This document shows positions 28,159 through 35,116 of a stretch of 64,000 bases of DNA, piece after piece (position 1 is the stretch's first letter; every line of letters begins with the position of its first letter). The notes beneath the pieces are model-generated. The model made no database searches. It saw only the letters and a list, made by a program, of their open reading frames with translations, and was not told the origin of the DNA. A program made the translations under genes and the position numbers. The stretch lies in NCBI RefSeq assembly GCF_002813755.1, contig NZ_CP018061.1:1292001-1356000 (forward strand). Direction: 5' to 3'. Origin of the DNA: Enterococcus mundtii. GTDB lineage: Bacteria; Bacillota; Bacilli; Lactobacillales; Enterococcaceae.

Positions 28159-28268
28159 GTTCGTTCAAGTCTGACTGTATTGTTGCAGTAAAGTACATAA
28201 TGTTACATAGTTAAAAAAATGATTCATACTGTCATTAATAAATCGATTGGGAACGATTTCACCATTGG

Positions 28269-28286
28269 TTTATCAATAATGATAAA
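28269..28286 (+). promoter_or_regulatory. Inverted repeat overlapping the toxin gene's ribosome binding site
   Basis: TTTATCA-ATAA-TGATAAA is a perfect 7-bp inverted repeat whose second arm runs into the AAAGGGG ribosome binding site (28284-28290) of the pore-forming toxin gene. It could act as an operator or as a weak translation-blocking hairpin. Confidence 0.45.
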
Positions 28287-28299
28287 GGGGATCAACAAA

Positions 28300-29235
28300 A
28301 TGAAAAAAGTAATAAAATTAATGTTAGGAGTAGTTGGAGCGACGAGTGTAGGACTATTTAAAGGGGAGTCGGTTGCTTGTGCGGATGATTCGCTTCCACA
28401 AATCGGAGAAGGGTATTTGAAATCGGTCAATCAAAGCACGATCGATCGCATGAGTACGATGGCCTATGCTTTGTCCTACCAAATGTATCAATGGGGAGAT
28501 ATTGGTGTGAATGAAAGACTCACTGGCAATGAATACAATCCAAAAAATGTGTCCAGTCAATCCTATTCAGTAGGAGTCAATAGTGATATGGGAACGAAAC
28601 AAACGTCAAAAACTGTGAATACAAGTGTTTTTCATAATCAAACAAATCAAGATCAAACGTTTACCACACCTTCTTATACCGAAACTTATATAGATTCGCT
28701 TACGACATCAACCACACATTCTGCAGGTATTTCTACATCAGCGAGTACTGAAATCAGCGTACCAATGTTTGGTTCGGCAAGTATGGGTCTTGAATTAAGT
28801 TACAATTTTAGTACAACCACTTCACATACTCGGGAAACACAAAAAGGCTGGACTGTTCCTGGTCAAGCCATCAATGTTCGACCGGGACATACAGTCGAAG
28901 TCAATTGGGTATTTTATACGGGTGAAGCAACAGGAACGGTTGATTTACAAGAACGCATCCGAGCAGATATCCCGTATAAAAAAGATTCTGCTGGGCGTAT
29001 CCATACATACGGACTTGGAACGGTAGTTGGCGACCGTCAAGTGCTGTCAGATAGTTATTGGGATCGCTATATCACAGAAAGTCGTAATAACTGGAAGAAA
29101 GTCGATGCAAATGTGGCAGGACAAAAAATTGGTGCTGGTACCTATCGTGTCGATTATGGTTCAGGATTTGTCTTAGAAGCCTTCGATCGAACGACTGGCA
29201 CAAAAGAAATCATTGCGACAGGCTATCGAATTTAA
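28300..29235 (+). CDS. Secreted pore-forming toxin, ETX/MTX2 aerolysin-type (Epx-like)
   Basis: 311 aa from the ATG at 28300 (AAAGGGG, 9 nt upstream); the in-frame ATG at 28219 would put 27 residues before the signal peptide. Signal peptide MKKVIKLML...ESVACA with predicted cleavage A28/D29. The mature protein is beta-rich with long Ser/Thr stretches and the amphipathic strand pair TTSTTHSAGISTSASTEISV...LELSYNFSTTTSHT, typical of the insertion hairpin of the epsilon-toxin/Mtx2 family. Enterococcal members are known as Epx toxins, some of which use MHC class I as receptor. Which Epx type this is cannot be told by eye. Monocistronic, between two terminators, among core genes. Confidence 0.85.
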   Translation: MKKVIKLMLGVVGATSVGLFKGESVACADDSLPQIGEGYLKSVNQSTIDRMSTMAYALSYQMYQWGDIGVNERLTGNEYNPKNVSSQSYSVGVNSDMGTKQTSKTVNTSVFHNQTNQDQTFTTPSYTETYIDSLTTSTTHSAGISTSASTEISVPMFGSASMGLELSYNFSTTTSHTRETQKGWTVPGQAINVRPGHTVEVNWVFYTGEATGTVDLQERIRADIPYKKDSAGRIHTYGLGTVVGDRQVLSDSYWDRYITESRNNWKKVDANVAGQKIGAGTYRVDYGSGFVLEAFDRTTGTKEIIATGYRI

Positions 29236-31890: not shown

Positions 31891-31919
31891 TTGACGGATA
31901 AATAAAATTCGATTAGACT
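31891..31919 (+). promoter_or_regulatory. Promoter of the Trp leader-trpXYZ transcript
   Basis: TTGACG (31891-31896) and TAGACT (31914-31919) with a 17-bp spacer. Predicted start near 31926, about 27 nt before the leader peptide ATG. Confidence 0.65.
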
Positions 31920-31952
31920 TAGGATAACACTTAAAGGAAAGGATGGTCCAAG

Positions 31953-32015
31953 ATGAACTTATCAATTCAAATTTTATCAGAACATAAAAATAATTGGCGT
32001 AACTGGCGTAGATAA
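31953..32015 (+). CDS. Tryptophan leader peptide (20 aa)
   Basis: A 20-codon reading frame with an AAAGGAAAGG ribosome binding site and an ATG, ending in NNWRNWRR. Trp codons are at 31995 and 32004, close to the TAA at 32013-32015. Tryptophan is the rarest amino acid, so two in the last six codons is a strong sign of a sensor peptide. It sits between a good promoter and a nest of mutually exclusive hairpins upstream of the tryptophan-type ABC transporter trpXYZ. Too short for an ordinary gene and not recognised as a described leader. Confidence 0.75.
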   Translation: MNLSIQILSEHKNNWRNWRR

Positions 32016-32141
32016 GTTGTATCAAGGGCGAACTTTTTCGTAGATACAACTTTTTAGAGTACAACAATGTACGATTCTAAAGTTTGTATCTATGCTGGAC
32101 AAGAATTTGATGACCGCATAGATGGCTCTATGCGGTTTTTT
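32016..32141 (+). promoter_or_regulatory. Five-segment transcription attenuator (putative Trp switch)
   Basis: Segments: A GTTGTATC (32016-32023), B GATACAAC (32043-32050), C TTGTATC with upstream TCTAAA (32076-32090), C' ATCTATGC (32088-32095), D ACCGCATAGA (32113-32122), E TCTATGCGGT (32127-32136) and T6. A pairs with B; B pairs with C (7 bp plus TTTAGA/TCTAAA and an inner GTAC/GTAC); C' pairs with GCATAGAT in D; D pairs with E to give a 10-bp terminator. Inferred logic: a ribosome stalled at the Trp codons leaves A free, so A:B forms, C':D forms and D:E cannot. A ribosome reaching the stop covers A, so B:C forms and the D:E terminator forms. Confidence 0.7.
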
Positions 32142-32147
32142 GTTGGT

Positions 32148-32187
32148 AAAAGACAATGACCGTACCAGCGGTGATTGTCTTTTTTTG
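32148..32187 (+). terminator. Second intrinsic terminator in the trpXYZ leader
   Basis: AAAAGACAAT (32148-32157) pairs with ATTGTCTTTT (32174-32183), extended by ACCG/CGGT around a six-nt loop, and a T-run follows. It lies between the D:E terminator and trpX, so transcripts must pass two terminators. Whether it also has an antiterminator partner was not established. Confidence 0.8.
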
Positions 32188-32258
32188 TTCATTCGCTCGA
32201 AGTTACACACGTAGCCGATTTATTTAAAAAAAATACATAACAAAAAGGGGAAATAAAA

Positions 32259-33284
32259 ATGAAAAATAAACGATTGATCGCAGTAATCGCACTGATACTT
32301 ATCTATTTGACCGGTACATTTATCTACGAAACGATCAAGGATCAGCCACCTGTTGAAGGAAATCGAACAGATGATAAGAAAGTTGTTGGGGTCTTACAGT
32401 TCGTTAGTCACCCTGCGTTAGATGAAATCTATCGGGGGATTAAAGATGGATTAAAAGAGTCAGGTTTGGAAGAAGGACGAAACCTAGAAATCAATTTCCA
32501 AAATGGTCAAGCCGACCAAAGTAAGTTAGCTACTATGAGTCAACAATTGGTTCAAAATAATCCAGACGTTCTCGTAGGTATTGCGACACCAGCAGCACAA
32601 GCCATCGCAAACACTACAAAGGATATCCCACTTGTCTTGGGCGCAGTAACTGATCCTGTAGGGGCAGGACTAGTACAAAGTTTAGAAGCACCAGGAGGCA
32701 ACATCACAGGAGTGTCGGATCAACCACCTGTGGAAGCGCAGATCCAATTAGCGACAGAACTATTACCAAAAGCAAAAACGGTCGGGATTCTTTATGCATC
32801 ATCAGAAGACAATTCACGTTATCAAGTCAGCCAAGCAGAAGAAGCGGCAAAAGCCAAAGGACTAACACCAGTGAAGTATGCCGTCCCTTCAACGAATGAA
32901 ATTGCGCAAACCGTCCAAGTAATGAGCCAATCAGTTGATTTTATCTATGTTCCTTTAGATAACACGATTGCTAACGCGATGCAAACGGTCATCAAAGAAG
33001 CAAATAAAGCAGATATCCCAGTAATTCCTTCTGTCGATACGATGGTCGAACAAGGTGGGTTAGCGACAATTGGAATCAATCAATACGAATTAGGTGTACA
33101 AACAGGTAAAATGGCAGCCGCTTTAGCAAATGGGAAAGAACCAGCCACAACCCCTGTCTATGTCTTTGATAAAGGCGATATCATCGTCAATGAAAAACAA
33201 GCAGAACTATTAGGAATCACGATTCCTGAATCCATCAAACAAGATGCAAAAGTATTGACAGAGATCAAGGAGGAAGAACAATGA
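32259..33284 (+). CDS. trpX: ABC transporter substrate-binding protein, TrpX type
   Basis: 341 aa, PF04392-like solute-binding protein. It starts with an uncleaved-looking membrane anchor (LIAVIALILIYLTGTFIY) and has no lipobox Cys, so it is probably tethered by its N-terminus. The core shows two alternating lobes (VVGVLQFVSHPALDEIYRGIKDGL..., GGNITGVSDQPPVEAQIQLATELLPKAKTVGILY...). Members next to TrpY and TrpZ have been assigned to tryptophan uptake by regulon analysis. The leader peptide here supports that assignment. Overlaps trpY by 4 nt. Confidence 0.85.
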   Translation: MKNKRLIAVIALILIYLTGTFIYETIKDQPPVEGNRTDDKKVVGVLQFVSHPALDEIYRGIKDGLKESGLEEGRNLEINFQNGQADQSKLATMSQQLVQNNPDVLVGIATPAAQAIANTTKDIPLVLGAVTDPVGAGLVQSLEAPGGNITGVSDQPPVEAQIQLATELLPKAKTVGILYASSEDNSRYQVSQAEEAAKAKGLTPVKYAVPSTNEIAQTVQVMSQSVDFIYVPLDNTIANAMQTVIKEANKADIPVIPSVDTMVEQGGLATIGINQYELGVQTGKMAAALANGKEPATTPVYVFDKGDIIVNEKQAELLGITIPESIKQDAKVLTEIKEEEQ

Positions 33285-34162
33285 TCGTATCCGCAATTTC
33301 ACAAGGTATGTTATGGGCCATATTAGGTTTAGGGATTTTTATGACTTACCGCATTTTAGATTTCCCTGATATGACAACAGAAGGTTCATTCCCTCTTGGT
33401 GGGGCTGTCTGTGTAACAGCAATCACGCATGGCGTTAGTCCATTATTGGCAACGATTCTAGGTGTTTTGGCCGGAATGGCAGCTGGCCTTGTCACAGGCT
33501 TACTTTATACAAAAGGAAAGATTCCAGTCATCTTAGCCGGTATCTTAGTAATGTCAGGTTTAAACTCAGTCATCTTGTTCGTGATGCGCACACCCAACCT
33601 TTCATTGTTGAATCATCCAGTCTTACAAGATGTGTTCCACGCACTACATTTACCGAATTATTTTGACACTGTCTTATTAGGATTATTATCGCTGGGCTTA
33701 TTGATCAGCGTGTTGATCTTTTTCTTCAATACAGATCTAGGGCAAGGCTATATTGCCACTGGAGATAATGAGACAATGGCACGTTCATTAGGAATCAAAA
33801 CCGACCGTATGAAAATCTTAGGTTTGACTTTATCTAACGGAGTGATTGCTTTATCAGGCGCATTGATCGCTCAAAACGATGGCTATGCGGATGTCAACAA
33901 AGGAATCGGCGTGATCGTGATCGGACTAGCTTCGATCATCATCGGGGAAGTCATTTTCCAGGAGTTGACACTGATCGAGCGTTTATTAGCAATCGTTGTC
34001 GGAAGCATCATCTATCAATTATTGATTTTAGCTGTTATCAAATTAGGTTTTGATACAACTTATCTGAAATTATTCTCAGCGATCATCTTAGCGGCTTGCC
34101 TGATGATCCCACAAGTAAAACAAGCATTGAAATTAAAAACTGGCTTTGAAAAGGAGGTCTAA
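33281..34162 (+). CDS. trpY: ABC transporter permease, TrpY type
   Basis: 293 aa, 8-9 transmembrane segments. Branched-chain/LivH-like permease family with PDMTTEGSFPLGGAV near the start and GDNETMARSLGIKTDRMKILGLTLSNG in the cytoplasmic coupling loop. Works with TrpX and TrpZ. The gene overlaps trpX by 4 nt and ends 2 nt before trpZ. Confidence 0.87.
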   Translation: MIVSAISQGMLWAILGLGIFMTYRILDFPDMTTEGSFPLGGAVCVTAITHGVSPLLATILGVLAGMAAGLVTGLLYTKGKIPVILAGILVMSGLNSVILFVMRTPNLSLLNHPVLQDVFHALHLPNYFDTVLLGLLSLGLLISVLIFFFNTDLGQGYIATGDNETMARSLGIKTDRMKILGLTLSNGVIALSGALIAQNDGYADVNKGIGVIVIGLASIIIGEVIFQELTLIERLLAIVVGSIIYQLLILAVIKLGFDTTYLKLFSAIILAACLMIPQVKQALKLKTGFEKEV

Positions 34163-34164
34163 CG

Positions 34165-34935
34165 ATGACAGCTATCTTAACGATCAAAAATGGTAGAAAA
34201 GTAGTCAACAATGGGATGCACGAAGAAAAAGTATTATTGGATGATATCCAATTGACCATCAATGAAGGAGATTTTATCACTGTTCTTGGCGGTAATGGGG
34301 CGGGCAAAAGTACTTTGTTCAATACGATTGCCGGAACATTGCAATTAAGTCAAGGCGGGGTTTATTTTAAAGACCAGCCAATCACTAAGTTGTCAGAAGA
34401 AGCACGAGCTTTATTTCTATCACGCGTATTCCAAGACCCAAAAATGGGGACTGCACCACGAATGACGGTGGCAGAAAATCTATTGTTAGCCCAAAAACGT
34501 GGTGAGAAACGGATGCTTCGTTTGCGTCAATTGAAAACCCAAAAAGAAGCGTTCTATAAAATATGCCAAGAAGTAGGCAATGGATTAGAGCAACATTTGG
34601 ATACACCTGCTGGCGAATTGTCAGGGGGGCAACGACAAGCGTTAAGTTTATTGATGGCAACGATCAAAGCGCCAGAATTACTTTTATTAGATGAGCATAC
34701 CGCAGCACTAGATCCTAAGACAGCCAAGCTGCTGATGGAATTGACCAACCAACGCATCACAGAGCAAAAGTTAACATGCTTGATGATCACGCACCGTATG
34801 GAAGATGCTTTGAACTATGGGAATCGCTTGATCGTCTTACAAAAAGGCCGGATCGTCAAAGACTTAGCGAAAGAAGAAAAACAAGCATTATCCATGAACG
34901 ATCTCTTACACTTCTTCGAGGAAGTCATCGATTAG
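34165..34935 (+). CDS. trpZ: ABC transporter ATP-binding protein, TrpZ type
   Basis: 256 aa. Walker A GGNGAGKST, signature LSGGQRQALSLLMA, Walker B LLLLDEHTAALDP and the H-loop ITHRM are all intact. Energises the TrpXY importer. Ribosome binding site AAGGAGGT. Promoter and terminator elements for aroE follow immediately. Confidence 0.9.
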   Translation: MTAILTIKNGRKVVNNGMHEEKVLLDDIQLTINEGDFITVLGGNGAGKSTLFNTIAGTLQLSQGGVYFKDQPITKLSEEARALFLSRVFQDPKMGTAPRMTVAENLLLAQKRGEKRMLRLRQLKTQKEAFYKICQEVGNGLEQHLDTPAGELSGGQRQALSLLMATIKAPELLLLDEHTAALDPKTAKLLMELTNQRITEQKLTCLMITHRMEDALNYGNRLIVLQKGRIVKDLAKEEKQALSMNDLLHFFEEVID

Positions 34936-35047: not shown

Positions 35048-35094
35048 ATGCCGCTTGTTCCTTCGTAGGTTCTACGAATGGACGCGGCATTTTT
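35048..35094 (+). terminator. Terminator/attenuator hairpin in the aroE leader
   Basis: ATGCCGC pairs with GCGGCAT, with an inner TCGTAG/CTACGA stem, and five T follow. It terminates trpXYZ, but a promoter lies between trpZ and it, so it may also attenuate aroE. It ends 22 nt before the aroE ATG. Confidence 0.75.
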
Positions 35095-35116
35095 AGCGTA
35101 TTATAGGAGGCGTTAC

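Follow-up and report, generated by a model that had tools for sequence, protein, structure and literature searches.

Proposed ribosome-read attenuation of trpXYZ in Enterococcus mundtii, a probable member of a modular class with exchangeable specifier codons

We find that the leader of the trpXYZ operon in Enterococcus mundtii is very probably controlled by ribosome-mediated attenuation at tryptophan codons. With good, if somewhat lower, confidence we read it as an attenuator that senses the charging of tRNA-Trp and belongs to a modular class with exchangeable codons. An earlier reading of the sequence alone had proposed a Trp leader peptide in which a stalled ribosome frees one RNA segment (A) and leads to read-through, and the comparative evidence favours this core. 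That evidence is computational throughout (conservation, pairing potential, covariation and the match between codons and genes); the ribosome footprint, stalling, folding order and read-through are the parts of the mechanism that we infer.

The window is the whole stretch of 64,000 nucleotides that was analysed. The sequence-only reading had labelled the genes 3' of the leader trpXYZ, and profiles bear this out. TrpX scores 471.5 bits against NF041285 ('tryptophan ABC transporter substrate-binding protein'; cut-off 390) and is followed by a permease and an ATPase recognized by Pfam, so that the three genes are predicted to encode one ABC importer. The window trpX is 99% identical to trpX of two E. 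mundtii records and has one match within its own genome, and a profile search identifies aroE as the next gene. By eye, a terminator-like hairpin (GCCGC...GCGGC, then a T-run) lies between trpZ and aroE at 35048-35095. An ORF at 28219-29235 has what we take to be a resemblance to ETX/MTX2-type pore-forming proteins. The features of the leader and operon are as follows.

31891-31919, + strand: promoter, -35 TTGACG and -10 TAGACT, spacer 17 (from sequence)
31938-31943, + strand: Shine-Dalgarno-like AAAGGA of the leader ORF, 9 nt 5' of the ATG (from sequence)
31953-32015, + strand: leader ORF MNLSIQILSEHKNNWRNWRR, 20 codons, C-terminus NNWRNWRR (from sequence and WxxW conservation)
31995-31997 and 32004-32006, + strand: the Trp codons within the leader ORF
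32003-32014, + strand: segment Z, CUGGCGUAGAUA, inside the leader ORF, a mimic of D able to pair with C
32016-32023, + strand: segment A, pairs with B, 9 nt 3' of the last Trp codon (own-partner test)
32039-32057, + strand: segment B (32039-32050 in the shorter delimitation), partner A or C (own-partner test, conservation)
32077-32098, + strand: segment C, partner B, D or Z (own-partner test, conservation)
32112-32122, + strand: segment D, 5' arm of terminator T1, partner C or E
32127-32144, + strand: segment E, 3' arm of T1 (32127-32137) and U-tract, partner D or F
32152-32164, + strand: segment F, 5' arm of terminator T2, partner E or G
32169-32186, + strand: segment G, 3' arm of T2 (32169-32181) and T-tract, partner F
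32037-32147, + strand: match to Rfam RF04312 (trpB motif), 44.3 bits at a looser threshold (gathering score 59)
32259-33284, + strand: trpX, tryptophan ABC importer substrate-binding protein (NF041285)
33281-34162, + strand: trpY, ABC permease (Pfam PF02653)
34165-34935, + strand: trpZ, ABC ATPase (Pfam PF00005)

The 20-codon frame with its ribosome binding site and Trp codons was located in the sequence as first described. The leader ORF is predicted to be translated, and its specifier codons correspond to the operon's amino acid. The promoter, earlier called good, is no better than chance by score (three promoter-like sites found here against 2.9 expected), but TTGAC is similarly placed in all 20 relatives printed (of 63).

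We scanned a genome collection for TrpX and obtained 68 loci. The check on which the sequence-only reading had staked itself, whether relatives keep the Trp codons and the pairing segments, came out for it: a short WxxW ORF lies upstream in 63 of the 68 TrpX-like loci, with WxxW leaders in Enterococcus, Tetragenococcus, Vagococcus and Bifidobacterium. The other five are L071, L078 and the distant L092-L094; L071 is a short contig, and in L216 Trp codons are visible there with no start under the rule used. Among the 143 Trp leaders with a matched A, 121 place that segment 8-10 nt after their last Trp codon; the remaining 21 of 164 Trp leaders gave no A match, and both 143 and 164 may include duplicates. 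Set A1 comprised the window and 57 of the 63 leader loci, omitting the near-identical L027 and L028 and Bifidobacterium L079, L081, L083 and L090; set A2 comprised 36 hand-chosen loci. These four Bifidobacterium loci have WRGWRS leaders before trpX-like genes, and no A-E chain was seen in them by eye. In L077 (B. mongoliense) the A-E chain is present, with GC-rich compensating changes (GUCGCA / UGCGAC / UCGCGU).

The leader folds to -92 kcal/mol against -63.0 (sd 4.6) for shuffled sequences, and 0 of 100 shuffles was as stable. Compensatory changes among relatives were examined by asking whether each segment pairs better with its own partner than with the partners of other species. Across the 105 loci sampled (of 142), A:B, B:C, C:D and D:E each favour their own partners, and covariation backs A:B and C:D as well as E:F and the pairing of Z, with its Trp-Arg codons, with C. 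The permutations lessen the effect of shared ancestry without removing it; since control pairings were flat, ancestry alone is argued not to be the source of the signal. The putative antiterminator C:D and the T-tailed intrinsic terminator D:E, both backed by this test, are mutually exclusive. Segments A-E of the five-segment attenuator first proposed stand with their coordinates, but five was an undercount: with Z, F and G there are eight. Segment Z consists of the final Trp codon, two Arg codons and the first two bases of the stop codon, and pairs with C over 12 bp when the window leader is folded without a ribosome.

We propose the following sequence of events. With no ribosome on the leader, Z would pair with C, D:E would form and transcription would end. 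A ribosome stalled at a Trp codon would cover Z and leave A free, so that A:B forms; C:D would then block T1, E:F would block T2 and RNA polymerase would continue. A ribosome that reaches the stop codon would cover both Z and A, allowing B:C to pair and D:E and F:G to form, and transcription would again end. Expression would be switched on only by a stalled ribosome. An A:B relay may have been inserted because C lies beyond the reach of a ribosome at the stop codon. The chassis of Z, A, B, C, D and E, often with F and G, would stay constant, and codons at or just before Z would be swapped to suit each gene. Within this scheme we regard the step involving Z as likely, and the coupling of T2 to the switch as the better-supported option, held somewhat less firmly.

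To model the ribosome, we folded leaders to just before E with the ribosome edge set by hand, in line with ribosome footprints, either 13 nt beyond the specifier codon's first base or 10 nt beyond the stop. The sample was 193 distinct of 205 loci; TL077 and TL081 had been dropped after the terminator scan found no T1. For the 152 Trp loci, C:D had a mean probability of 0.28 without a ribosome, 0.72 with a stalled ribosome and 0.34 with a ribosome at the stop, and the stalled state had the highest C:D in 132 of them. Shuffling A lowered the stalled value to 0.22. Across the Trp loci this supports the earlier statement that the geometry gives the right sign, but for the window alone this crude model did not separate the stalled and stop states (C:D 0.69 and 0.72), though the C:D helix remaining at the stop is 5.8 kcal/mol weaker. 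The His and Leu groups were also poorly separated, the Leu group (7) still including the chance hits L188 and L244. When E was included, the fold favoured T1 whether the ribosome was stalled or at the stop; the choice must therefore be made while the RNA is being transcribed, as happens in known attenuators.

The second terminator could instead stand apart from the switch, with T1 alone controlled and T2 either a separate terminator that leaks to some extent or a remnant of terminator duplication. Consistent with this, T2 is missing in 23 of the 105 loci, and in the non-Trp set D:G favours its own partner (0/4000 permutations), as expected of a T2 copied from T1. The Trp set behaves otherwise: E:F favours its own partner (-12.4 against -8.7 kcal/mol for others; 0/4000) and D:G does not (439/4000), and we set aside a mere by-product of T1 duplication for this set only. 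An unswitched T2 would also blunt induction, and we judge control of T1 alone to be rather unlikely. Among the 105 loci, T2 occurs in 62 of 73 Trp members and one of eight His members.

We asked how the leader codons relate to the gene that follows. TrpX-type substrate-binding proteins (SBPs) are preceded by Trp codons in 92 of 95 distinct cases (the others being two Phe and one Tyr), TrpB by Trp codons in 4/4, and HisZ-like genes by His runs (HHH to HHHHH) in 11/11. NSS transporters follow runs of Phe (6), Tyr (3) or Leu (5), a TrpY-like permease follows Phe (7) or Tyr (1), and BrnQ (2) and AroE (1) follow Tyr/Phe. Across 136 distinct leader-gene combinations, with gene classes taken as similarity clusters and their representatives named by profile, the association was reached by 0 of 10000 permutations, with Trp included or excluded. 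A single genome, G744, holds HHHR before HisZ (L217), LLLLANLR before an NSS transporter (L228, weak SD) and VVFSSQFR before a permease (L235). TrpX-family SBPs also occur behind Phe/Tyr leaders (L193, L205, L212, L282, L287 and L289), that of L193 scoring 319 bits on the TrpX model, below the cut-off of 390; to judge from their leaders, the substrate of these proteins may be Phe or Tyr instead of Trp. The related loci L271 and L272 have a weak match to our chassis model (R1, below) and an Asn-containing leader, MLNFQFIKLNNGYNI, with an aspartate--tRNA ligase gene about 340-360 nt downstream, and are a possible Asn/Asp version. About 1 kb upstream of the Phe-type attenuator in L133, positions 465-556 match the pan motif (RF01749) above its gathering score.

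In the Rfam scan of the window no family reached its gathering score. The window falls below that of RF04312, whose core corresponds to segments B-E, and five of 20 close relatives scanned pass it, so that the window belongs to the class by homology. In the parts of the 2024 trpB motif paper that we consulted, RF04312 has more than 900 representatives, most often precedes an uncharacterised ABC transporter and is ranked as a strong riboswitch candidate, with a classic attenuator left as a possibility; Fusobacteria are named there (PMC11109978). Genome searches at E up to 0.001 turned up RF04312 in 160 out of 295 genomes of Lactobacillales (52 over cut-off), in 12 of the 59 from the family to which G657 belongs, in 20 of 391 from its class and in 5 of 398 from a phylum draw; for Lactobacillales, 110 among the matches listed were read. 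The sequence-only reading had thought the extra hairpin unusual. The A:B relay and T2 are indeed additions to the classical plan, but the device is widespread. In 144 of the 153 matches examined, the motif is where an SD-led ATG ORF of 8-45 codons ends, compared with a mean of 9.2 (range 4-14) for dinucleotide shuffles. Seven of the 153 were judged to be chance hits, of low score with no fitting leader or gene (L135, L136, L188, L233, L244, L251 and L252), omitted from the codon-gene and own-partner tests; leaving them out gives 142 of 146.

The discoverers' speculation that RF04312 RNA directly binds an amino acid or related ligand (PMC11109978, in the parts seen) could draw on the high conservation of B, C and D in the TrpX set as well as on their ranking. 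Conservation of B-E is also expected of the attenuator, given that every one of these segments pairs with at least two others. Since an ORF nearly always ends at the motif and it is the last codons of that ORF, and not the RNA core, that vary with the gene behind it, we consider ligand binding very improbable. A TnaC-like arrest, with the nascent WxxWRR peptide stalling the ribosome on free tryptophan or at termination, seems more improbable still. The WRR-stop C-terminus is strongly kept within Enterococcus, but leader stop positions and C-termini vary widely beyond it (WRR against WYKTLY in Tetragenococcus), and it is the specifier codons and their spacing to A that are constant; we therefore set the arrest peptide aside. 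We likewise rejected a T-box for the trpXYZ leader: RF00230 has no match in the window, in agreement with the earlier remark that no T-box motif is visible. Outside the window, the same genome has 18 T-box matches, nine over cut-off.

A covariance model of the chassis (R1; 36 sequences) gives two strong hits in the genome that contains the window, the trpXYZ leader (73.9 bits) and C1:299437 (84.3 bits). The second has the leader MKITLNSQLNTYYFSYFR (YYFSYFR) and precedes DAHP synthase, the first shikimate-pathway enzyme. A third match, L288 (40.7 bits), seems to lie inside a gene and was discarded as chance, as were G401 and G538, which have no fitting leader. The C1:299437 copy passes Rfam RF02863, 'Enterococcus sRNA 2410' (66.8 bits, gathering 61); Rfam scans reported no RF02863 match for the window leader. 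RF02863 and RF04312 match together at five of 11 loci scanned (L200, L212, L222, L223 and L241), mostly below one or both gathering scores.

R1 occurs in 86 of 88 Enterococcaceae genomes, mostly with two to four matches each. Among 30 loci listed, 23 have Tyr/Phe leaders, of which 20 stand ahead of an aroE relative and one ahead of DAHP synthase; the other seven have Trp leaders, each followed by a trpX relative. RF02863 was found in 15 of 15 genomes of a genus draw, and in G004 (presumed E. faecium) it lies directly before a second TrpX-type gene. In E. faecium Aus0004, sRNA_2410 was confirmed by Northern blot as two transcripts (PMC5593968, seen in part), as might be expected of a leader whose transcription can stop early. 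In L289:1501-1695, the presumed E. faecium form, the D:E hairpin is without a U-run and enclosed by an outer hairpin, with a later terminator 3' of it, so the two bands are not assignable to T1 and T2. The main text of PMC7724050, as far as seen, yielded no mention of trp or aro leaders.

For aromatic amino-acid genes of Enterococcaceae, T-boxes or TRAP would be expected. The enterobacterial trp, his and phe operons carry a leader ORF with specifier codons, alternative pairings and a T-tailed terminator. Our leaders share these features, Z-C-D-E corresponding to segments 1-4; peculiar to them are the A:B relay, the second, putatively coupled terminator and a chassis common to several specifiers. 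Like T-boxes, they would combine one chassis with an exchangeable specifier to sense tRNA charging at similar genes, but here the specifier would be read by a translating ribosome. RF04312 as published, in the parts seen, shares the B-E core but is a two-hairpin riboswitch candidate whose model is without leader ORF, Z, A and T2 (PMC11109978). RF02863 shares the chassis with FSYFR-stop but is listed as an sRNA.

The earlier reading took ribosome-mediated trp attenuation to be the enterobacterial solution; leader-peptide attenuation as such is already known in Firmicutes: the Leu leader-peptide attenuator of S. aureus ilv (PMC5794164), predicted His leaders (PMC9413887), with which our His members probably overlap, and a His leader in bacilli (PMC2965389). 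The ilv and predicted His systems are each described for one pathway, whereas several specifiers occur here. In the portions of these papers that we saw, we found no link to RF04312 or to Trp, Phe or Tyr versions (PMC5794164, PMC9413887), no mention of specifier codons in RF04312 (PMC11109978) and, in the literature searched, where one paper names the trpB motif, no description of its leader ORF. As far as that search goes, what is new is the leader ORF assigned to RF04312, the merging of that family with RF02863, the spread of specifiers, segment Z and the putative coupling of T2.

On balance, we favour uniting RF04312 and RF02863 as one class of modular, ribosome-read amino-acid sensors, an eight-segment domino RNA and counterpart of the T-box. 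Its swapped specifiers would be Trp, Phe, Tyr, His, Leu and perhaps Asn; a coding mimic of D would keep the untranslated state off, the A:B relay would reach the antiterminator, and two terminators would be disarmed in a row. A published orphan riboswitch candidate and an enterococcal 'sRNA' would thereby gain a testable identity tied to amino-acid supply. The natural specifier swaps would show how such devices evolve, and leader codons may suggest substrates for transporters that lack firm annotation. If this reading is true, leader-peptide attenuation would be common for aromatic amino-acid uptake and synthesis in Enterococcaceae.
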